64,000 nucleotides of DNA, from contig JAYKKR010000022.1 of assembly GCA_036971615.1 (NCBI GenBank), forward strand, positions 62,001 through 126,000. Direction: 5' to 3'. Shown piece after piece: positions 9,876-19,825 of the stretch. Position numbers and translations under genes: made by a program. The DNA comes from Amyloporia xantha. Lineage: Eukaryota; Basidiomycota; Agaricomycetes; Polyporales; Adustoporiaceae. The notes beneath the pieces were generated by a model. It saw nothing but the letters and a program-made list of their open reading frames with translations, made no database searches and was not told the DNA's origin. Numbering within the stretch: the stretch's first letter is position 1; the number at the start of each line of letters is the position of its first letter.

Positions 9876-10069
9876 AATGGCCAATCAGTCCTTGCGCTTT
9901 GAATTGTAGTCACACCACTGACCTGACCACACACGAAACGTCGTGATGAATGACAGATTGCAAAGCCTAATGGATGGCGAGGCATTATTATTATTATACA
10001 TACAGCATGAGATTTATTGAAATGCATATAATTAAAGCGTAGAAAAGGAAACAATAGGGCGGAATATAC

Positions 10070-11040
10070 TACTTCAAGGCGAGAATATACCACGATAATA
10101 TGGCGCAGTCGGCCGCGCCGTGTCTACAGGCTATATTATAGCCCTCGGCCGACACTACTTCAAGGCGAGAATAGACCACGATAATATGGCGCAGTCGGCC
10201 GCGCCGTGTCTACAGGCTATATTATAGCCCTCGGCCGACACTACTTGCAGGCGAGAATATACCACAGAAATATGGCGCAGTCGGCCGCGCCGTATCTAAA
10301 GGCTATATTATAGCCCTCGGCCGACACTACTTGCAGGCGAGAATATACCACGATAATATGGCGCAGTCGGCCGCGCCGTGTCTACAGGCTATATTATAGC
10401 CCTCGGCCGACACTACTTGCAGGCGAGAATATACCACAGAAATATGGCGCAGTCGGCCGCGCCGTATCTAAAGGCTATATTATAGCCCTCGGCCGACACT
10501 ACTTGCAGGCGAGAATATACCACGATAATATGGCGCAGTCGGCCGCGCCGTGTCTACAGGCTATATTATAGCCCTCGGCCGACACTACTTGCAGGCGAGA
10601 ATATACCACAGAAATATGGCGCAGTCGGCCGCGCCGTATCTAAAGGCTATATTATAGCCCTCGGCCGACACTACTTGCAGGCGAGAATATACCACGATAA
10701 TATGGCGCAGTCGGCCGCGCCGTGTCTACAGGCTATATTATAGCCCTCGGCCGACACTACTTGCAGGCGAGAATATACCACAGAAATATGGCGCAGTCGG
10801 CCGCGCCGTATCTAAAGGCTATATTATAGCCCTCGGCCGACACTACTTCAAGGCGAGAATAGACCACGATAATATGGCGCACTCGGCCGCGCCGTATCTA
10901 AAGGCTATATTATAGCCCTGGGCCGACACTACTTGAAGGCGAGAATATACTACGGAAATATGGCGCACTCGGCCGCGCCGTATCTACAGGCTATATTATA
11001 CCCTCTCGGCCGACCCTGCACTGCAGGCTATAGCGATGGC
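10070..11040. repeat. 86-bp palindromic satellite, 11 copies, dimeric higher order
   Basis: TGGCGCAGTCGGCCGCGCC (TGGCGCACTCGG in the last two) starts at 10101 and then every 86 bases exactly to 10961. Each unit contains two nested inverted repeats: AGTCGGCCG..CGGCCGACA and GGCTATATTATAGCC. Two variants differ at CGATAATAT/CAGAAATAT and GTGTCTACAGG/GTATCTAAAGG. From the unit at 10187 to that at 10789 they strictly alternate, giving a 172-bp higher-order repeat. The last two units are diverged. Short chance ORFs run through the array; none looks coding. Confidence 0.95.
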
Positions 11041-11129
11041 GTCGGCCGACGTCCGCTCTCCTTACTAAGTAATAAAAATTTCACCCATATCTCTCCCTAT
11101 AGAGTAGGCTATAATGACTGAATGGGCTC

Positions 11130-11441
11130 CCAATCTGCACAAAGAGTGAGGAGCGATGATGATTGCTCAGGTCCAAGGAGGTAAGATTTGTGTGCGGCAA
11201 CGGAACATGTGTGTGGGTGCAGGAGATAGAAATTCTCAGGATCACAGACAGAAGATAGATGCAGCCTGTGAGCGACTGAGGAGAGGATGGAGCCAGGCTC
11301 TCACAGGCTCTGTCTTTTGTCTGTGATCCTGAGAATTTCTATCTCCTGCACCCACACACATGTTCCGTTGCCGCACACAAATCTTACCTCCTTGGACCTG
11401 AGCAATCATCATCATCGCTCCTCACTCTTTGTGCAGATTGG
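11130..11441. mobile_element. Foldback (MITE-like) element with about 125-bp inverted arms
   Basis: The left arm begins CCAATCTGCACAAAGAGTGA at 11130 and the right arm ends with its reverse complement at 11441. The arms match almost perfectly for about 120-125 bases and then less well inward, so the whole 312-bp unit can fold into one long hairpin. No ORF of note. Target-site duplication is not clear (GGGCT left, ATCCA right). It is non-coding; any mobilising enzyme is unknown. Confidence 0.8.
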
Positions 11442-11798
11442 ATCCATTTACCATGTCCGACACTGACACATCTGTCCTGATGCCGCATCAGATCTCCCTA
11501 CGGTTTTTGCCTCTGCTCACTCAGTCTGCAACAATATATTATTGGCATCGTTACCATAATATTCTCGCAGCCTGGGCAATACCTCACCACATGCACGGCG
11601 AGCAGGCATAATAACCTAATTAACATAGTAATAATAACAACGAGGACAATTCTGTTTCAAGATTGAAACAGTTACATCAAGCTATCAATCAAATCTTCTA
11701 GATTGCGAATATTTATTGTGAAGTATTCGCATACTGGTTCGCAATGTAATGCATGGTGAACCCAATACCAACCCTCACCTATATAGAAAATACTATAT
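11442..11798. other. No gene recognised
   Basis: Mixed-composition then AT-rich sequence between the foldback element and the PLE. A short AAATCTTCTAGATT palindrome-like word and a TATATAGAAAATACTATATA inverted repeat are visible at about 11692 and 11781. The missing 3' part of the gene interrupted at 18382 is not found here. Confidence 0.4.
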
Positions 11799-12275
11799 AA
11801 TTAGCGCCGGGGTAACGTGACATAGTCACGTGACATGGGGCGTCTAATATACGCGCTCGATGATGTCATGTTCCAGGCCCGCCTGGGCCATGACGTCAGG
11901 GGTGGCACATGTGATTGCATGAATCACATGCACCGGCTCGGCTACTTCGGTGACTTATCGGACCGGCGGAACTCCGTCGGAATGACGTCACTCCTAATAA
12001 TAGGAGACAGGTCTAGACAATGACATCATAGTCCGAGTCCACCCGATAGCGGGATAATGCTATTGGCTCGGTCTCGTCGGCAACTATTAATAAGATATTA
12101 TGCCGTCGTACGATTCTCAAAGTCGTACGATGCGAGGTATTTCTCGCTTACCAAGATAGAGGGCCTGATGAGTCTATAAAAGACGAAATGGGTCGGTGTT
12201 GGATCCCCAGCACCTCATTGCCTTGCTCTGTCTCCCGCTCCTCAGCAACTTCCTCCGCTAAGGTCGCCTTCGGCT
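11799..12275 (+). repeat. 5' pseudo-LTR of the PLE (first part, before the intron)
   Basis: Identical by eye to 17864-18340. It contains CACGTGAC and TGACGTCA-like palindromes, a GTCGTACGA..TCGTACGAT inverted repeat near 12106-12132, and a hammerhead ribozyme. Identity with the 3' copy stops abruptly after GGCT at 12275 and resumes at 13587 (CCCATAGCTCCGTCG) for about 42 bases, ending at CCACCTAACC. Confidence 0.9.
12155..12232 (+). ncRNA. Hammerhead ribozyme (type I) in 5' pseudo-LTR
   Basis: Core CTGATGA (12165-12171), stem II GTCT/AGAC (12172-12175 with 12181-12184), GAAA (12185-12188). Stem III pairs ATGG (12188-12191) with TCAT (12215-12218), then GGTGTTGG (12195-12202) with CCAGCACC (12207-12214) around loop ATCC. 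Stem I pairs GGGC (12161-12164) with GCCT (12220-12223). Predicted cleavage falls after T12219. Hammerheads of this short form are established PLE features and are thought to process the element RNA. Confidence 0.9.
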
Positions 12276-13586
12276 GAAGACCCACGCGGGAATTGTAAGT
12301 TATGTGTAATGCGGGTGGCTCCTGCTTTCCGCCTCTGTGACGGGGGGGTCCCTTACTGCTCTAATAGCATGGGGTGGTAAGGTGCCGGGTTTTCGTCTGG
12401 CTTACTCCCTCCTTGAACATGTGGGTTACACCTCTGTCGATGCATCCGCTTCAGGTACGTGGGTCATTTGGCCGTGTGCGGTGGTCTGTCACACAGACAG
12501 TCAGGGACTCCGGTCCTTGGCTTATCTCCCGTGCAAGTCAGCGCAGCAGCTGGCGACATGTCCAAACTGTTCTGGAAAGCCCTAAAGGCTTAGGTACCGC
12601 CACTAGGGCGTAAGCCCTAGCGTGTAGACGCCTCTTACTCTGTCCCCAGTAGCCTGTCGAAGCGGTCTTAGGACCTGCGGGGCGAAACGGCGGTTAAAGC
12701 GCGCACTTTGATGGCACCGGTGGGAACCGGGTACGGTAATAATCCTAAGTATGAGCGATGGCGCGCCTTCTGGGTGTATACCCTGGGACGTTCGAAGCGA
12801 AATGGGTAATCAGCAGCCAACCAGCTTGGCGCGTTTATTCGCGTCGAGGTGAGGGGTTCAACGACTAGATGGATGTGGGCGGACCTCTGATTCTTGCCTC
12901 TGTGACGGGGATGGTATTCCTGGGGCGGCGTTTCCCGGGCAGCTGGCCTTAGTCCCGCAAGGGGCGACGGTTCGGCTCGAACTCCTCCCTTGAACAAGTA
13001 AGCAAGTCCGCTTAAGATATAGTCTATATAGCAGCGAAAGCTGTGGTAGTACGCTAAACACGATAAAACGGTGGTGTTGTAAGCGACGACGCATCACCGG
13101 GGGCTGTCTGCTTATGGGGTTCCTGCCCTGTCCCCTCGTGCCTGAACGACTACGCTGTATAAAGCCGGACGGAGGCTCACTGTTTTGGGTAAATCCGAAA
13201 CATGTCTTCGTTCGCCGGTAGTAGCTTGTGGTGTAACAGCCCTTTGCGAACCCGTGTCCACGTGACGAAAAGGCGGTGGCCCCTTAGCGAAGGGTCTTAA
13301 ATGGGAAGTGTCCCAGCACAGCCGAAGTAGGTCCGTAAAACCCTTGTTGGTCTCCCCTTAGTGAAGGGAGTTCGCAGTGACACTAGTCGCGCCAGCAGTT
13401 GTGGCCCCTTAGTGAAGGGTCTTAAACCGGCAGTAGCTGGGCAACCTTGTGGGTGGGATTTCCTGAGTTGTATGCGCTCAGAATACACGGAGATGACTTG
13501 TACAGTAACCGCGGCATGCCTAACTTCTCAACTGTGACCCGCCTGTGAAAGCAGGTGGTGAGGATGGAGTAAAGCCGTTATCCTTG
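12276..13586 (+). ncRNA. Group I intron inserted in the PLE 5' pseudo-LTR
   Basis: The 3' pseudo-LTR reads GGCT-CCCATAG with nothing between; the 5' copy has 1311 extra nucleotides exactly there. The 5' exon ends in T and the insert ends in G (13586), the group I rule. Core signals occur in order: P-like segment near 12553-12585 (CCAAACTGTTCTGGAAAGCCC region), Q-like AATCAGCAGCC (12808-12818), R with GACTA (12863-12867), S AAGATATAGTC (13014-13024). P7 pairs GACTA with TAGTC (13020-13024), and P8 pairs GCGGAC (12879-12884) with GTCCGC (13006-13011). A P6-like hairpin GGCGCG/CGCGTC follows Q. The 560 nt after S hold three CCCTTAGYGAAGGG hairpins. The internal guide sequence is not resolved. 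No homing endonuclease is recognised. It would self-splice from PLE RNA. Confidence 0.8.
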
Positions 13587-13673
13587 CCCATAGCTCCGTC
13601 GTCGCTTCGTCGCTCCACCACCTAACCATACCACCAACGACGCGCCCCCCGTTAAGTTCTTACATTTCTCACA

Positions 13674-16600
13674 ATGTCTTCGTTCAACTTCTCTGTTGGA
13701 ACCCCAGCCTTCCTCCGCGCCGTCTCTCCCCTTGCAGAAGCTTCTCGCATCAGCAACGTGGCGGCGCAGTCAGGCGAGGAGAGTAACACCTCCTTGCTAT
13801 ACGGCCGTCACACGGCGATTCTCGCGGCCAACACGGTCGATGAAGTCGTCTCCATGGTGTCTCCAGACTACCGTGACGTTCTCCGCGGCCCGCTCCTTGA
13901 GCTCGCCAAAACCGTCAGCAAGTGCTGTTCGGCGCGGTCCACTCTAGCAAAGTGGGAGCACCACAAGAGTGCCGGAACGTACCCTCAGCACCTCCGCGTC
14001 GCAAAGCCCGACCTTCAGCTCACGAAGGAGTACTCGGATTCGACGGGTGCCGCCGCGCACAAGAAGAAAATCTCGGATGACTGGGATAAGTACTTGAGCG
14101 GTACTTTGGAGGAGTCGATCCGGGCCAAGCGGGACGACGTAGCTCATTTAGAGGGACTTTTGGGTCGAGATGTGTTGTTCCAGCAGCTCGACAATATCGT
14201 TAAGCATCGGTGGCAGGTGGTGAAGACACAGGCCCTTGTACCGAAGCTCGTTGCTGCGCCCAACGACCCGAACGAGACAGTCGTCGACGGCTGGGAGGTG
14301 TCCCCTGTAGCGGTCGCCGCCTATCACGCCTGTCGAGAAGACTTGTCGGTCTTCGTCTTGCGCATCCAACGGCTCGTCGAGAGTCGTGATGCTGCGTCTC
14401 GCCTTAAGCAGGACGCCAAGAAGGAGATCGCTGCTGCCGCCGACGTCGAAATGGTCGATGTCTCTGACAACGCCGTCGCTGGTCCCGGGCCCTCTACTAT
14501 GGCCCTGATCAACAAAGCAGTCGATGCGCGGTATCACAAGCTCGCGGACAAACTCTCGAAGGAGTATGCGGCTAAGCAGAAGGTAAGTCCAGGCCCATCG
14601 CTTGGCACCAAAGCTTACACGCTAATGTCGTACCTAGAAGAATGGCGGGTCGACTCAGTCCAAGGGCAAAGGGAAGGAACTCCCTCGTCCCCCGGAGGTA
14701 AAAAGGTACATTCCTCCTCCTCCCCGCAGTCGTCAAAGAAGCGCGACTCAGGGATCTCTCAGCAGAAAGGCCAAGGCTATTCGCGCGGCGGGAGGGGTAA
14801 AGGCTCATCAGAAGAAGGAGCAGGCGAAGGAAAAGAAGGGGCGGGGAGGAAAGAAGGGTGGCAAGTAAGCGCGTACTATAACGATAACACATCGTTTACG
14901 CCGTTGTCAGAGGGTGAGGCTTTGTCTCGGACTTTTTCGTATCAATATGGACGTCCCTCTTCTCTCCCGGACTGGCTGCTTTCGGTCCCGCATCCTGTGG
15001 CTGTATCTTGTGTACTTTTAAATACTCCAGTTGATGTTCTGCGAGCGTCCCAATTTAAAAGTTACGTTCATCTGTCCACCGGTGTCTCTGTCCCCCGTGA
15101 GATACAATATCAGTTAAGTATAGGCATGAAATTCATGTTCTATTCGCCTTACAATCGTGAACTCATACGCGATGCATGGCGAGAGTTTAATCGTCGCATT
15201 CATTGGCGACTGTTTTTCCACTTGACCGATCAAAATCAGTGGTTTGATCCTGAGTATGAGGTGAAATCTGAGCATCTTGCGAAAAGAGTACCTCAGCTAC
15301 CGCACTATATCGAACAAGGACTTCTCAAAGGCAGGCTGTTCGTTAACAAAACGCTAGCCAATATGCCAGAGTCGCTGGAGTCGGAAGACCACCTTAAGCC
15401 GCTCGGTCCGAATCTCCGCCAAGTTCGAGACTTCTTGAAGGCTCACGACTATATTGTGACGCCTACAGACAAGAATCTGGGAATTGCGGTGTCAGAGCGC
15501 ACCTGGATCATCTCTCAAACCTTGGAGGTGCTGTCAAATGCTAAGGATTATCGACGCCTTAACAGATTAGCAGCCAACGAAATCCTTCGAGTAAAATGTG
15601 CAGAAATGAATGCGCTGGCAGACTTAACTGAGGTCTACCTTGCGCTTGAGGAGCCGTCTAACCTGTCAGACTTTTTGCGGTCTAAGATAACACCGGCAGG
15701 TTCGAGTAACCATCATATACCTATATTTTACGGTATACCTAAAATTCACAAATACCCTGTGAAGTTTAGGCCGATAATTCCATGTCACTCGGCCATTCAA
15801 AATCCTGCGGCTAAATTCGTTTCTAAAAAACTCAAACCGATTGTCGAATCGGCGCCAACCATTCTTCATGGTACCAAACACTTGGCGATAAAATTGAGTC
15901 AGTTGAAGTTGCGTCGAGACCGTCGCTGGTACATCGTTACTGGTGACGTCGTCGCGTTCTACCCAAACATTCCTTTGGACAAATGTCTGAATATTGTCAA
16001 CGAGCTTTATCTCGAACATTATTGGAGTGTGGATCCGGAACGCGGCGGAGCTGATCATGCAGCGAAGGTTCGAGAGATCTTTCGTCGCTGTCTCGAAGTC
16101 GGCAACACTAGACTGCTTACACAGTTTCAAGGTGTTCTATATGAACAATTGCGCGGCCTAGCAATGGGCGTAGCGGACTCACCGGATCTAGCTAATCTGT
16201 ATGGTTGGTGGTTCGAGCGCAAATGTGATATAATGAATAACGACTTAGTCCCTTTCTACGGTCGTTACATCGATGATTGTCTCGCAATTGTCTACGCTTC
16301 TAGTGAACAAGAGGCGCTTGATATTATCTCGTACAATATTCACTTCGATGGCTGTGTTATTGAGTGGAATGTGTCGCATCGGTCTCAGGTGTTCCTGGAC
16401 ATGACGCTCTACAAAGATGAATTTGATAGACTGCAGCACATGCCATACCGCAAAGCGGCATCCCACCAAGAAAGGATTCCATGGATATCTCATCACCCAC
16501 TCGACGTAAAGAGGGGTACCTTTATAGGGGAGATGTCACGGCTTGCCACCCTGAGTAGTACTAAGCATACTTACTTACAGGCCATGCAGGGCTTGGTCGC

Positions 16601-17234
16601 CCTGTACATGTGCAGGGGGTATCCCGAACAACTCGTGACTCATTGGCTGAAGAATAACATCTCAGAACGATGGGAAAAACGGCTCAGTGTACCGCGTGAC
16701 GGCGGTGAGCCTAAGGCGTCGCAAGGCGTTCTTGTACTGAAGTCTGAGTTTAACGAGGCATGGAACTACTTTCAAGCGAAAGAGCTTGGAGACGTCATCA
16801 CTGGATATTGGCGTGAGTGGTGCACACGTGCCGCCACAGGGGACTGGTCACCAGAATACCCGTACGAAGATGACAGATCGGGCAGAGCCTCGTTCGACTC
16901 GGCGTTGAAATTCCGTAGTTGGCATGTAGGCGAGGAAACCCAGTTTGTTGATATTCGTAAGACTGATATCCTTGACCGTCGCTGGTTAGTGTCTCGTAAA
17001 AGAACACGAAACCTAGCCGACATCGCAAGTGTCTGGAAAAAGATGATTCTCGAAAAGCTGGACGAGCGTGTCGTCAACGAACAATCTGCGGAAAGTTCGT
17101 CAATGGCGGCACCTAGTGTTCAAGGCGGCTCGCAGTTGCCCTTCACTCAGCCAGAGGAAGTCTCTGGGGTTTCTGATGAAGATACCATATATCTGCACCG
17201 TCACTCGCCGGACCCATTTGGGTGGGCGCATTAG
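13674..17234 (+). CDS. PLE ORF: N-terminal ORF1-like region fused to Penelope reverse transcriptase
   Basis: Uninterrupted 1186-aa frame. Residues 1 to about 300 are unrecognised and charged. Residues about 300-400 are low-complexity, rich in Lys, Gly and Ser. The reverse transcriptase follows: FYGIPKIHK at 685-693, GDVVAFYPNIP at 757-767 (first catalytic Asp 758), GLAMGVADSPDLANLYG, and YIDD at 865-868 (Asp 867 and 868), then a thumb-like region through SHHPLDVKRGTFIGEM. This motif set is the Penelope RT type, related to telomerase RT. The last 180 residues contain no GIY-YIG motif, so the protein should lack the PLE endonuclease. Start ATG 13674 follows the spliced 5' leader by 45 bases. 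An intron candidate at 14583-14637 would change the frame (see separate entry). No stop or frameshift is seen, so the copy could be active. Confidence 0.9.
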   Translation: MSSFNFSVGTPAFLRAVSPLAEASRISNVAAQSGEESNTSLLYGRHTAILAANTVDEVVSMVSPDYRDVLRGPLLELAKTVSKCCSARSTLAKWEHHKSAGTYPQHLRVAKPDLQLTKEYSDSTGAAAHKKKISDDWDKYLSGTLEESIRAKRDDVAHLEGLLGRDVLFQQLDNIVKHRWQVVKTQALVPKLVAAPNDPNETVVDGWEVSPVAVAAYHACREDLSVFVLRIQRLVESRDAASRLKQDAKKEIAAAADVEMVDVSDNAVAGPGPSTMALINKAVDARYHKLADKLSKEYAAKQKVSPGPSLGTKAYTLMSYLEEWRVDSVQGQREGTPSSPGGKKVHSSSSPQSSKKRDSGISQQKGQGYSRGGRGKGSSEEGAGEGKEGAGRKEGWQVSAYYNDNTSFTPLSEGEALSRTFSYQYGRPSSLPDWLLSVPHPVAVSCVLLNTPVDVLRASQFKSYVHLSTGVSVPREIQYQLSIGMKFMFYSPYNRELIRDAWREFNRRIHWRLFFHLTDQNQWFDPEYEVKSEHLAKRVPQLPHYIEQGLLKGRLFVNKTLANMPESLESEDHLKPLGPNLRQVRDFLKAHDYIVTPTDKNLGIAVSERTWIISQTLEVLSNAKDYRRLNRLAANEILRVKCAEMNALADLTEVYLALEEPSNLSDFLRSKITPAGSSNHHIPIFYGIPKIHKYPVKFRPIIPCHSAIQNPAAKFVSKKLKPIVESAPTILHGTKHLAIKLSQLKLRRDRRWYIVTGDVVAFYPNIPLDKCLNIVNELYLEHYWSVDPERGGADHAAKVREIFRRCLEVGNTRLLTQFQGVLYEQLRGLAMGVADSPDLANLYGWWFERKCDIMNNDLVPFYGRYIDDCLAIVYASSEQEALDIISYNIHFDGCVIEWNVSHRSQVFLDMTLYKDEFDRLQHMPYRKAASHQERIPWISHHPLDVKRGTFIGEMSRLATLSSTKHTYLQAMQGLVALYMCRGYPEQLVTHWLKNNISERWEKRLSVPRDGGEPKASQGVLVLKSEFNEAWNYFQAKELGDVITGYWREWCTRAATGDWSPEYPYEDDRSGRASFDSALKFRSWHVGEETQFVDIRKTDILDRRWLVSRKRTRNLADIASVWKKMILEKLDERVVNEQSAESSSMAAPSVQGGSQLPFTQPEEVSGVSDEDTIYLHRHSPDPFGWAH
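14583..14637 (+). other. Candidate frame-switching intron in the PLE ORF
   Basis: GTAAGT..CTAG, 55 nt, inside the open frame. If removed, ORF1 continues in another frame for 76 codons of very basic sequence (KGKGKELPRPPEVKR, then KKEQAKEKKGRGGKKGGK) and stops at TAA 14866-14868, giving a separate 379-aa ORF1. If kept, the 1186-aa ORF1-RT fusion is made. Both frames are open across the whole overlap. Confidence 0.5.
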
Positions 17235-17863
17235 TACCTGCGTTGGTGAAAACTGTAGCCAGCGTGTGGGAAAGTGTGTCTGCTAGCGAGTCAGCCAGCA
17301 TGTGGCTTTTATTTGTTATACTCTGGAGACTATTCTGTTCGCCCGTTGGCGGCCTCCTTTACATTCTCAGAAGTGTGGAAGGCGCATAACTGGGCCTGTG
17401 CCTCTCAGGGGAGGTGCCGCGAAAACGGAGTTGCCTCTGATGCATGGGGGGAGGGTACTACGACTACTCTTATGGATGAACTGACCCTGCGCGGCAGTCC
17501 TGCGACCGTTGTATAACTGATAATTTCATGTGCTGTAGCTGGCAGCCCGCGATTCGAATGGTAGTTCCTCACGAGCTCTCACTCAGTGTCTTTCAGCTGT
17601 TTGGGAAGGGGGGAGATCAGCAACTCTTTCGCACCTCACTTGCAATATCTTGTAAGTACTACGGTTTCTGTGTACACCGCAGACGGTATTAACCGAGGCG
17701 TTTTACCTAATTTAACCTAACCAGAACCTAACCTAACCGTATGTACATTCCTTAATCGGAAATACAATATTGCTGACTAATTGATGTCATATCAAAATAG
17801 TAACCTAACCGAACCTAACCTAACGGACCTAACGGTCCGGGCAAGGTGCGTAGTCCTTAATGC
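17235..17863 (+). repeat. PLE 3' untranslated region with degenerate CCTAA-type repeats
   Basis: No further ORF of note. From about 17700 to 17835 the words TAACCTAACC, CCTAACCTAACC and CCTAACGG recur in two clusters (17708-17730 and 17801-17835) separated by an AT-rich stretch. They resemble a degenerate C-rich telomere strand, although the usual fungal repeat CCCTAA is not perfect here. Confidence 0.6.
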
Positions 17864-18381
17864 AATTAGCGCCGGGGTAACGTGACATAGTCACGTGACA
17901 TGGGGCGTCTAATATACGCGCTCGATGATGTCATGTTCCAGGCCCGCCTGGGCCATGACGTCAGGGGTGGCACATGTGATTGCATGAATCACATGCACCG
18001 GCTCGGCTACTTCGGTGACTTATCGGACCGGCGGAACTCCGTCGGAATGACGTCACTCCTAATAATAGGAGACAGGTCTAGACAATGACATCATAGTCCG
18101 AGTCCACCCGATAGCGGGATAATGCTATTGGCTCGGTCTCGTCGGCAACTATTAATAAGATATTATGCCGTCGTACGATTCTCAAAGTCGTACGATGCGA
18201 GGTATTTCTCGCTTACCAAGATAGAGGGCCTGATGAGTCTATAAAAGACGAAATGGGTCGGTGTTGGATCCCCAGCACCTCATTGCCTTGCTCTGTCTCC
18301 CGCTCCTCAGCAACTTCCTCCGCTAAGGTCGCCTTCGGCTCCCATAGCTCCGTCGTCGCTTCGTCGCTCCACCACCTAACC
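17864..18381 (+). repeat. 3' pseudo-LTR of the PLE, lacking the group I intron
   Basis: Matches 11799-12275 and continues without interruption into CCCATAGCTCCGTCGTCGCT, the sequence found at 13587 in the 5' copy. It ends at CCACCTAACC about 18381, where it meets host sequence. This is the empty-site counterpart that defines the intron boundaries. Confidence 0.9.
18220..18297 (+). ncRNA. Hammerhead ribozyme in 3' pseudo-LTR
   Basis: Exact counterpart of the 5' ribozyme, offset by 6065 bases: CTGATGA at 18230-18236, GAAA at 18250-18253, predicted cleavage after T18284. Cleavage at both ribozymes would release an RNA spanning 12220-18284. Confidence 0.9.
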
Positions 18382-18388
18382 CTAACTT
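18374..18388. other. Telomere-like CCTAACCCTAAC at the PLE/host junction
   Basis: The last element bases (CCTAACC) run into CTAAC of the interrupted gene; read on the minus strand this is GTTAGGGTTAGG, two copies of the common fungal telomere repeat. This is the arrangement expected if element RNA was reverse transcribed from a G-rich 3' end. Confidence 0.6.
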
Positions 18389-19298
18389 CTCCGAGATCGC
18401 GATCTGGATCATGTTCCCCGCTAGCAGCCCACCGTGCTCGACGTTCAACTCCGCCAGCAGCCGAGTCGCCTCCATCTTGTTGATCGGCCGATCGTTCCAC
18501 TGGTGCGGAACGAACACCATCCCCAACTCCTTCGCGAGGAAGTCCAGCAACGGCACCCGCACATGCCCGTACAGCGCCTCCGAAATCTTCGCCTCCAGCT
18601 TCGCCACCTCCTCCCCGCGTTCCTTCGAGTCGTCCGTCAGCCCGATCGCGGTCGTCATCTTCCGCAACGCATTCTAGATCCCCGTGCGATCGAACGTCAA
18701 TATCACATCCAGCCCGATCATGTTAATCTTACGTACCTCCGATCTCTCCGCTTCCCTTTCCGCCTTCGTCTGCTCGTCTTCCTCCTCCGCGGCCTCCTCC
18801 TCCCCGTCCCCCTCCCCACTCTCCCCGTCCCCGTCGCTCACCTCCTGCGCCTTCTCCTTCCCCTTCCCCTTCCCCTTCGCCTTACCTTTCGCCTTCGCCT
18901 TACCTTTCTTCTTCCCCTTCGCCACAGGAACAACCTCCTCCTCCACCACCACATCATCCTCGTCCTCGTCCTCGTCGATGACTGCACCGACTTTCGACGG
19001 CCCAGCGATCGTCGCCTGCTTCACAGGCGGCGCAGCAGGCTTCGACTGCCGACGTGGCGGCGCATACCCCTGCGGCACCCCAGCACGCTGACCGCGCAGC
19101 GTGATCGGCCGACTCAGCTGTGTCACAGCCGGCACTGTCCACAGCGTTATCCATGCACACTCTCATAGGTATATGCTACTCACCTTCTCCTCCTCCTTCT
19201 CCTTCTCCAGAGCTGCTATCAATCTCCTCTATCTCAGGAGGATCCGGTTGCTTGCGGCGGCGGCCTCCTCCGGTTGTCGTTGCTTTCTTTGGAGGCAT
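18382..19298 (-). pseudogene. Lys/Glu-rich protein gene, 3' end truncated by the PLE
   Basis: Exon 1 starts at ATG 19298 (MPPKKATTTGGGRRRK) and ends at a GTGAGT donor; exon 2 starts PAVTQLSRPITLRG after a ..GGACAG acceptor. After RSE a GTACGT..CTAG intron leads to NALRKMTTAIGL. The protein has a proline/arginine-rich start, an acidic stretch (DEDEDEDD), KGK repeats, an EEAAEEEDE stretch, then a folded-looking segment (VPLLDFLAKELG, NKMEATRLLAEL, GNMIQIAISEKLG). The frame is lost at the PLE junction, and the missing part is not found left of the PLE. I do not recognise the family; nuclear localisation is only suggested by the basic tracts. Confidence 0.55.
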
Positions 19299-19424
19299 GG
19301 TACAGGTACGTCTCAGTCTCTGTGGAAGTCGAGGCGTATCGAACGACCAACGCAAACCAGCGCCCAGTCGATCGATACGATCACTCGACTCTCACAGTCA
19401 CATGCATCGCCCGCACGTGCCTTC

Positions 19425-19825
19425 TTCGCGCATCCGCATGACCGAACGGATGCGCGATATCGAGGGTATTTTCGTGGTCTACACAAGTGCGCAGATCGCG
19501 CTTCCGTTCGCTCGTGCGGATGCGCGTTCGACGCGGTAAATATATCCCCAAATGTATAGCCCCAAAGGGCAAAAAACGCGCTTCCGTTCAATCGTGCCGA
19601 TGCGCGTTTTTTGCACTTTGACACTACACATATTTACCCCATCGATCGCGCTTCCGTTCGATCGTGCGGATGCGCGTTCGACGAGGTATATGCGTATAGT
19701 ACCCGAGTGCGTCGAACGCGCATCCGCACGAGCAAACAGAAGCGCGTTCGTGCATATATTTCACTTCTGTACATTCAGTACTCCGTTCGCGCTTCAGCAC
19801 GCTCTATCCGAAGCGCGTTCTTGTC
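19425..19825. repeat. Family of quasi-palindromic 28-34 bp repeats
   Basis: At least six copies, in both orientations, of a word near GCGCTTCCGTTCGATCGTGC followed by GGATGCGC: about 19431, 19498, 19578, 19646, 19706 and 19786. Each is a near-palindrome with mismatches at matching positions of the two arms. Spacing is 60-80 bases with AT-richer sequence between. It lies 130-530 bases upstream of the truncated gene's start. Binding-site array or hairpin repeat; function unknown. Confidence 0.65.

Follow-up and report, generated by a model that had tools for sequence, protein, structure and literature searches.

The 1311-nt insert in the leader of a Penelope-like element (PLE) described here is, with near certainty, a group I intron. 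We analysed a window of 64,000 nt (bases 62001-126000 of contig C15) and searched the genome from which it comes (46.8 Mb, 60 contigs); labels such as C6, C10-C13, C15, C22, C27 and C47 denote contigs of this same genome and are used for the PLE copies that they carry. Based on its match to the ribozyme model, on guides matched to their sites, on compensatory changes and on the discord between intron and element, the insert is a ribozyme of the group I class, lies outside rDNA and has a history independent of that of its carrier. The sequence itself shows the insert and its ribozyme structure, the guides matched to their sites, the several sites and the discordant history. On balance, we think it probable that the intron splices out of the leader of this telomere-associated PLE, freeing the leader of the ORF, and that it persists or spreads when the PLE's own reverse transcriptase (RT) uses intron-bearing PLE RNA, unspliced or reverse-spliced, as template.

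The PLE spans positions 11799-18384 of the window and consists of two pseudo-LTRs, an ORF of 1186 aa and the 3' end CCACCTAACC (Table 1). It had been predicted that the pseudo-LTRs are alike save for 1311 nt after GGCT, and this is indeed the case: 477 nt are identical, the insert is present only in the 5' copy, and past the insert the match resumes (13587-13630 versus 18341-18384, 43/44, 97.7%). The junctions are fixed to the base and no sliding is possible (exon T, intron G...G, exon C), in agreement with the exon U and intron-terminal G rule that the original prediction had invoked and with its use of the empty 3' repeat as a control that fixes the splice sites. Its assignment to group I is confirmed by the Rfam covariance model Intron_gpI (RF00028), matched over its full length and above the gathering threshold. 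The scores are similar in the three copies that hold the core and both ends (59.8 bits in C15, 59.9 in C22 and 63.2 in C11-B, all above gathering), while a truncated copy in C27 scores 31.4 bits, below gathering, and copy C11-A, from which the core is missing, gives no match to RF00028. One tRNA and the group I intron are the only Rfam matches at or above gathering in the 64-kb window. No rRNA family matches in the window, and the intron sits in the PLE leader, not in an rRNA gene.

Table 1. Features of the intron, its insertion sites and the carrier element (positions in the window)
Feature	Position	Strand	Remarks
5' pseudo-LTR of PLE, to 5' splice site	11799..12275	+	477 nt identical to 17864-18340
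Putative hammerhead ribozyme in pseudo-LTR	12155..12232	+	predicted cut 12219/12220, 56 nt 5' of intron
5' exon (leader exon 1), predicted hammerhead cut to splice site	12220..12275	+	no ATG
S1 equivalent position	12239..12240	+	C11 copy A (L006), 5'-truncated, 3' junction only, joined to CCTCAGCAAC; 36 nt upstream of S2
S1b equivalent position	12242..12243	+	C27 (L005), 5'-truncated, 3' junction only, joined to CAGCAACTTCC; 33 nt upstream of S2, 3 nt from S1
Group I intron, 1311 nt	12276..13586	+	homing-endonuclease ORF: none recognised by eye
P1 extension 5' strand GACCCACG	12279..12286	+	8 bp with 12458-12465; identical in 3 copies keeping the 5' end
Stretch matched by Rfam Intron_gpI (RF00028)	12455..13046	+	59.8 bits (gathering 50), E 1.1e-12, model 1-253 of 253
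P1 extension 3' strand CGTGGGTC	12458..12465	+	pairs with 12279-12286; 7/8 pairs in free fold
Internal guide sequence GGCCG	12470..12474	+	pairs with exon CGGCT (12271-12275), G.U at splice site
P7 5' strand GACTA	12863..12867	+	pairs with 13020-13024
P8 5' strand GCGGAC	12879..12884	+	long peripheral insert, then 13006
P8 3' strand GTCCGC	13006..13011	+	pairs with 12879-12884
P7 3' strand TAGTC	13020..13024	+	pairs with 12863-12867
P9 hairpin, GAAA loop	13031..13044	+	compensatory changes in C27 copy
Long structured P9-side domain ending in terminal G	13047..13586	+	25/38 compensated pairs here
3' exon (leader exon 2), up to ORF ATG	13587..13673	+	no ATG within
S3 equivalent position	13628..13629	+	C11 copy B (L006), both junctions, CCACCTAACCT / TCACCACC; 42 nt downstream of S2
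PLE ORF, 1186 aa, uninterrupted, reverse transcriptase	13674..17234	+	without GIY-YIG motif by pattern
3' pseudo-LTR without intron	17864..18384	+	empty site 18340/18341; end = CCACCTAACC + CTAA-type repeat

P1, the guide sequence, four other copies of the intron and the other insertion sites go beyond the original prediction and were found here. DNA searches of the genome detected five intron copies, all in the sense orientation and all in PLE leaders, and a search with the first 25 nt of the intron found three copies with an intact 5' end; these counts are lower bounds, as more diverged copies could be missed. Site S2 (GGCT/CCCATA) is occupied in C15 and C22. The element in C11 contains two introns, copy A at S1 and copy B, 1192 nt long, at S3, and the C27 copy lies at S1b. 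The 5' flanks of S1 and S1b were deduced from empty copies, and since the S1-type copies lack a 5' junction, the 3-nt offset between these two sites could be a small deletion. Erosion of the chromosome end, instead of RT stops, may account for the two truncated copies. Both the U before the intron and the terminal G are present in C15, C22 and C11-B, and the terminal G in all five copies; the intron begins with GAAGACC in each of the three copies that retain the start and ends with ATCCTTG in five of five. Variable insertion borders in other copies had been named in advance as evidence against a group I intron. Other copies do lie at other sites, but the intron termini are constant wherever they are present, which argues for a moving intron and not for a wrong call.

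Among the pseudo-LTR ends that reach S2 in the stretches examined (n = 37), 35 are empty and two contain the intron, so the empty-site control holds beyond the element in the window. Five of the empty ends are in leaders (C10, C12, C13, C27 and C11, the last two with introns at other sites). The other 30 stop at most 44 nt into exon 2, as 3' pseudo-LTRs do, and none of these 30 has an intron. This census leaves out C10:1-1300, C27:1-900 and C34 beyond 12364, as well as pseudo-LTR matches ending before position 477 (the C6 and C32 leaders among others). That all examined 3' pseudo-LTRs are empty fits splicing of the intron from the element's RNA, though it does not amount to proof. Eight copies of the subfamily include the start of the ORF; introns occur in C15, C22, C11 and C27 and were found in none of C6, C10, C12 and C13. 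If four insertions were distributed at random over the 4854-nt intron-less element, the probability that all would fall in the 143-nt leader is 7.5e-7, selection ignored.

The guide sequence starts four bases past the P1-extension strand CGTGGGTC, at the same aligned position in the S2 and S3 introns, and differs between them: it is GGCCG in C15 and C22 and GGGUUAG in C11-B (L006:2281-2287). With its own exon, each guide forms 5 bp (S2) or 7 bp (S3), with a G.U kept at the splice site; with the exon of the other site only 2 bp form. Duplex energies of guide and exon follow the same order, with -7.5 and -8.5 for the own exon versus -3.4 and -2.2 for the exchanged one. Between C15 and C11-B, P1 has three double changes and a U.U mismatch that becomes U-A. 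When the final 30 bases of the exon and the first 210 of the intron are folded freely, the minimum-energy structure contains P1 with 5 and 7 bp in the S2 and S3 introns, respectively, together with 7 of the 8 P1-extension pairs in both. In C11-B, of 1182 positions, only that of the guide can form 7 bp or more with the exon. For C15, at least 5 bp to the exon can be formed at 12 of 1301 intron positions, two of them within the first 300 nt. When all U positions of the own leader are compared (34 and 30), the true site ranks best for each guide. Along the complete element without intron, the C15 guide can form at least 5 bp at 22 U positions and the C11-B guide at least 7 bp at 6, so the guides are not unique within the element. 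The guide is kept in three of the five copies, two of which have the same guide, and thus the P1 covariation rests on two guides. A Helitron or other DNA transposon was considered as the nature of the insert and is ruled out by the ribozyme match and P1.

The P7 and P8 pairings were recovered where the original prediction had placed them (Table 1). In C11-B a short hairpin takes the place of P8 and the long P8 peripheral insert is absent. An RNAalifold consensus of the five copies has 320 pairs, 38 of them with a compensated change and 25 of these after P9; this automatic fold fails to reproduce the core pairings. In helices placed by hand, double changes were counted in P1 (3), P2 (1), P2.1 (4), P6a (2), P8 (1) and P9 (2), while P1ex, P3, P4, P5 and P7 are invariant among the copies holding both strands and are uninformative either way. 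The cmscan alignment places a long insertion between the P5 strands, which bears on an assignment to subgroup IC1. A search for P10 by eye gave nothing convincing. One module is duplicated in the P1 loop and the P8 loop (12322-12345 and 12887-12910), and another is present twice in the P9 domain (13276-13309 and 13401-13434).

In an alignment of 1305 bases, the introns of C15 and C22 differ at a single one, with 7 further gap columns (the single-base gaps of C22 may be sequence errors), versus 205 differences over 2004 positions in the N-terminal parts of the ORFs, i.e. in elements that are ~10% diverged (Fisher 3e-45). In the ORF tree C22 groups with the intronless C10, and a C15+C22 grouping is rejected (p-AU 7e-63). 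In contrast, the intron tree (four rows) joins C22 to C15, and a C15+C11 grouping is rejected (p 0.010). Exon 2 of C22 is also identical to that of intronless C10, and, going outward from the intron, the exons of C15 and C22 first differ at base 18 on the upstream side and base 7 on the downstream side. The conflict between the two trees, together with the near-identity of the C15 and C22 introns, indicates that the intron's history differs from that of its host element, and independence of the two is strongly supported by these comparisons. The intron appears to have moved between element copies and to different sites within the element. The empty site in C10 could represent loss via a spliced copy, and thus the transfer may have run either way.

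Another account of the C15/C22 pair is gene conversion or recombination between PLE copies in subtelomeres. In this account the intron is ancestral, that of C22 was overwritten by that of C15 or the reverse, and no mobility specific to the intron is needed. Subtelomeres recombine, and the exons of C15 and C22 are identical beside the intron for 17 nt upstream and 6 nt downstream. However, the ends of the conversion tract must then fall inside those 17 and 6 nt, and conversion leaves the S3 and S1 sites, the constant intron ends and the guides that fit their sites unexplained. We consider this account unlikely.

Under the reading that we favour, in which the intron splices and spreads through PLE RNA, this RNA would start at or upstream of the hammerhead cut ~56 nt before the intron, and the intron would remove itself with guanosine to leave a joined leader ahead of the 1186-aa RT ORF. 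The intron contains 20 ATG triplets and the joined leader is free of them, so that translation of the ORF by ordinary scanning would require splicing. Unspliced PLE RNA, with the intron still inside, could be reverse transcribed at the telomere by the PLE's enzyme. Alternatively, the excised intron could re-enter PLE RNA by reverse splicing via its guide and then be reverse transcribed. In this way the intron would enter new copies, at times at another site or in another PLE lineage. Beyond the sites and guides themselves, we infer that the intron splices and reverse-splices and that RNA containing it serves as template. The available text of PMC3846280 proposes, for introns of PLEs generally, a template that is antisense or unspliced. 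The changes of site with constant intron ends fit reverse splicing, and an RNA-level route via reverse splicing and the PLE enzyme is our best reading of the movement, with about an even chance of being correct. The S2 guide forms only 2 bp with S3 and vice versa, so a simple S2-to-S3 jump by reverse splicing with an unchanged guide is not expected; the guide must have changed, either before a move between S2 and S3 or by improvement after insertion at a poor match. The C11-B guide GGGUUAG resembles the telomere G-strand repeat, and could therefore pair with C-rich telomeric or PLE 3'-end RNA. Being complementary to the telomere-repeat-like end of PLE RNA, it could address many telomeric transcripts, and the intron might then be a natural case of the full pathway of reverse splicing and reverse transcription, an idea for and against which we see the scales evenly balanced.

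Movement at the DNA level would involve a homing endonuclease encoded elsewhere that cuts empty leaders, with repair copying the intron in. Homing is the general route by which group I introns spread, according to the available text of PMC1299323, and the S2 introns of C15 and C22 are nearly identical, as homing would give. Yet the intron uses three or four sites that differ in sequence, and no likeness to an endonuclease was seen by eye among the listed open frames of at least 70 aa in three intron copies, in which the longest stop-to-stop frames are 141 aa. Co-conversion of the flanks is not seen either: C22 departs from C15 as close as base 18 upstream and base 7 downstream of the intron, and its exon 2 equals that of intronless C10. 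We therefore regard homing as improbable. It is highly improbable that a real ribozyme core has lost splicing and now serves as 5' UTR structure, e.g. one that supports uncapped translation or makes the RT pause: splicing is a prediction from the sequence and two copies break off inside the intron, but P1 is kept by compensating changes at the splice site, as expected if the 5' splice site is in use, the ATGs lie within the intron and outside the joined leader, and no copy has lost the terminal G.

The 3' end of the PLE, CCACCTAACC, continues into telomere-like repeats. At non-leader PLE ends (n = 29), at least one further CTAA unit follows in 22, at least two in 9 and none in 7, and several PLE copies adjoin (CCTAA)n at contig ends. 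At contig ends the telomere repeat is five bases long, (CCTAA)n / (TTAGG)n, and CCCTAA occurs among the units now and then (e.g. L041:1-190 and L063:1-130; in the window, 17700-17830). The hammerhead model RF00008 scores 20.1 bits at 12144-12188, below its gathering threshold of 48.5, and the stems and cut position of the putative ribozyme were assigned by eye. Its core, CTGATGAG...GACGAAA, occurs at 34 places in the stretches examined, in 10 distinct sequences.

The full 1186-aa ORF has no Pfam match, and its matches to RT models of NCBIfam are weak. A search with the RT core found 305 relatives at E <=1, and many of the 120 listed have precomputed PF00078 (RVT_1) annotations; on rescanning, RVT_1 was recovered in 2 of 6 RT-core relatives, with scores at or below gathering. 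Among the ORF relatives listed, the only organism given by name is Armillaria ostoyae, and no PLE relatives were confirmed in viral contigs. A first structure model of the RT has a pLDDT of 31. Based on the pseudo-LTRs, the putative hammerhead and known motifs, the RT presumably belongs to the PLE type. A pattern search for GIY...YIG found no match in the ORF or in the 121 relatives examined, and the PLE apparently lacks an endonuclease.

Endonuclease-deficient, telomere-associated PLEs include Athena and Coprina. Like elements of this type, the PLE described here has pseudo-LTRs, a hammerhead-like motif, an RT ORF without a GIY-YIG pattern and CCACCTAACC joined to telomere-like repeats; unlike them, as far as the covered part of the literature goes, it has a group I intron in its leader. 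We found no description of a group I intron in a PLE in the open full-text literature, whose coverage is partial and leaves key PLE papers outside, and none appears in the available text of PMC9587614, PMC7761336, PMC6155905, PMC7473861, PMC11167929 or PMC3846280. PLEs disperse intron-containing genes, according to the last of these sources as far as available (PMC3846280). Known PLE introns are host-spliced or lie in captured host genes, whereas this intron has its own ribozyme and its own history.

Like the nuclear rDNA group I introns of Tetrahymena, Physarum and fungal SSU and LSU genes, the PLE intron matches the full model, keeps the order of P1-P9, is preceded by U and ends in G. Twin-ribozyme (lariat-capping) introns resemble the PLE intron in being nuclear group I introns of large size that carry long additional domains; unlike them, the PLE intron has no recognised endonuclease gene. 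A second, lariat-capping ribozyme was also sought and rejected, as no second ribozyme family matches in 10500-19500 at E <=5 save hammerhead-like matches. Nuclear group I introns are restricted to rDNA according to the available text of a 2021 paper (PMC8395846). Changes of intron site in fungal rDNA have been ascribed to reverse splicing, in the part of the source available (PMC1299323), where the sites have 4-8 nt of 5' exon in common; here, exon and guide both differ between S2 and S3. Unlike the rDNA introns, the intron in the PLE leader rides on an RT-encoding retroelement and uses several sites within ~80 nt. The same available text names RT availability as a likely main determinant of movement by reverse splicing (PMC1299323). 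The present intron is carried in RNA that encodes its own RT, and one genome offers sites with and without the intron, guides of two specificities and a host phylogeny, which opens an old question to direct tests. The case further suggests a way for a self-splicing intron to survive within an element that makes copies of its own RNA.

Contig C47 (180.8 kb, taken as mitochondrial) has six group I matches (L050-L055); 26 of 868 genome candidates were scored, and other nuclear group I introns may be missed. Descent of the PLE intron from the C47 introns was rejected, as among the matches listed there are only exact runs of 12-14 nt (E >=0.26). Four of the C47 matches have equal length and score in both orientations, which suggests repeats or assembly duplication. 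With up to one mismatch allowed, a conserved motif of SSU rRNA was not found in the assembly, from which rDNA may thus be missing.

A second PLE subfamily is present in the genome (L035:1501-5025 in C13; protein identity 71%), with pseudo-LTRs ~72% alike in C1, C6, C7 and C13, and the DNA searches of the genome detected no intron copy in it. Just upstream of the PLE in the window are a ten-copy tandem array of an 86-bp unit and a near-perfect long palindrome (9982-11055 and 11130-11441), the latter with matches to miRNA families that score under gathering.
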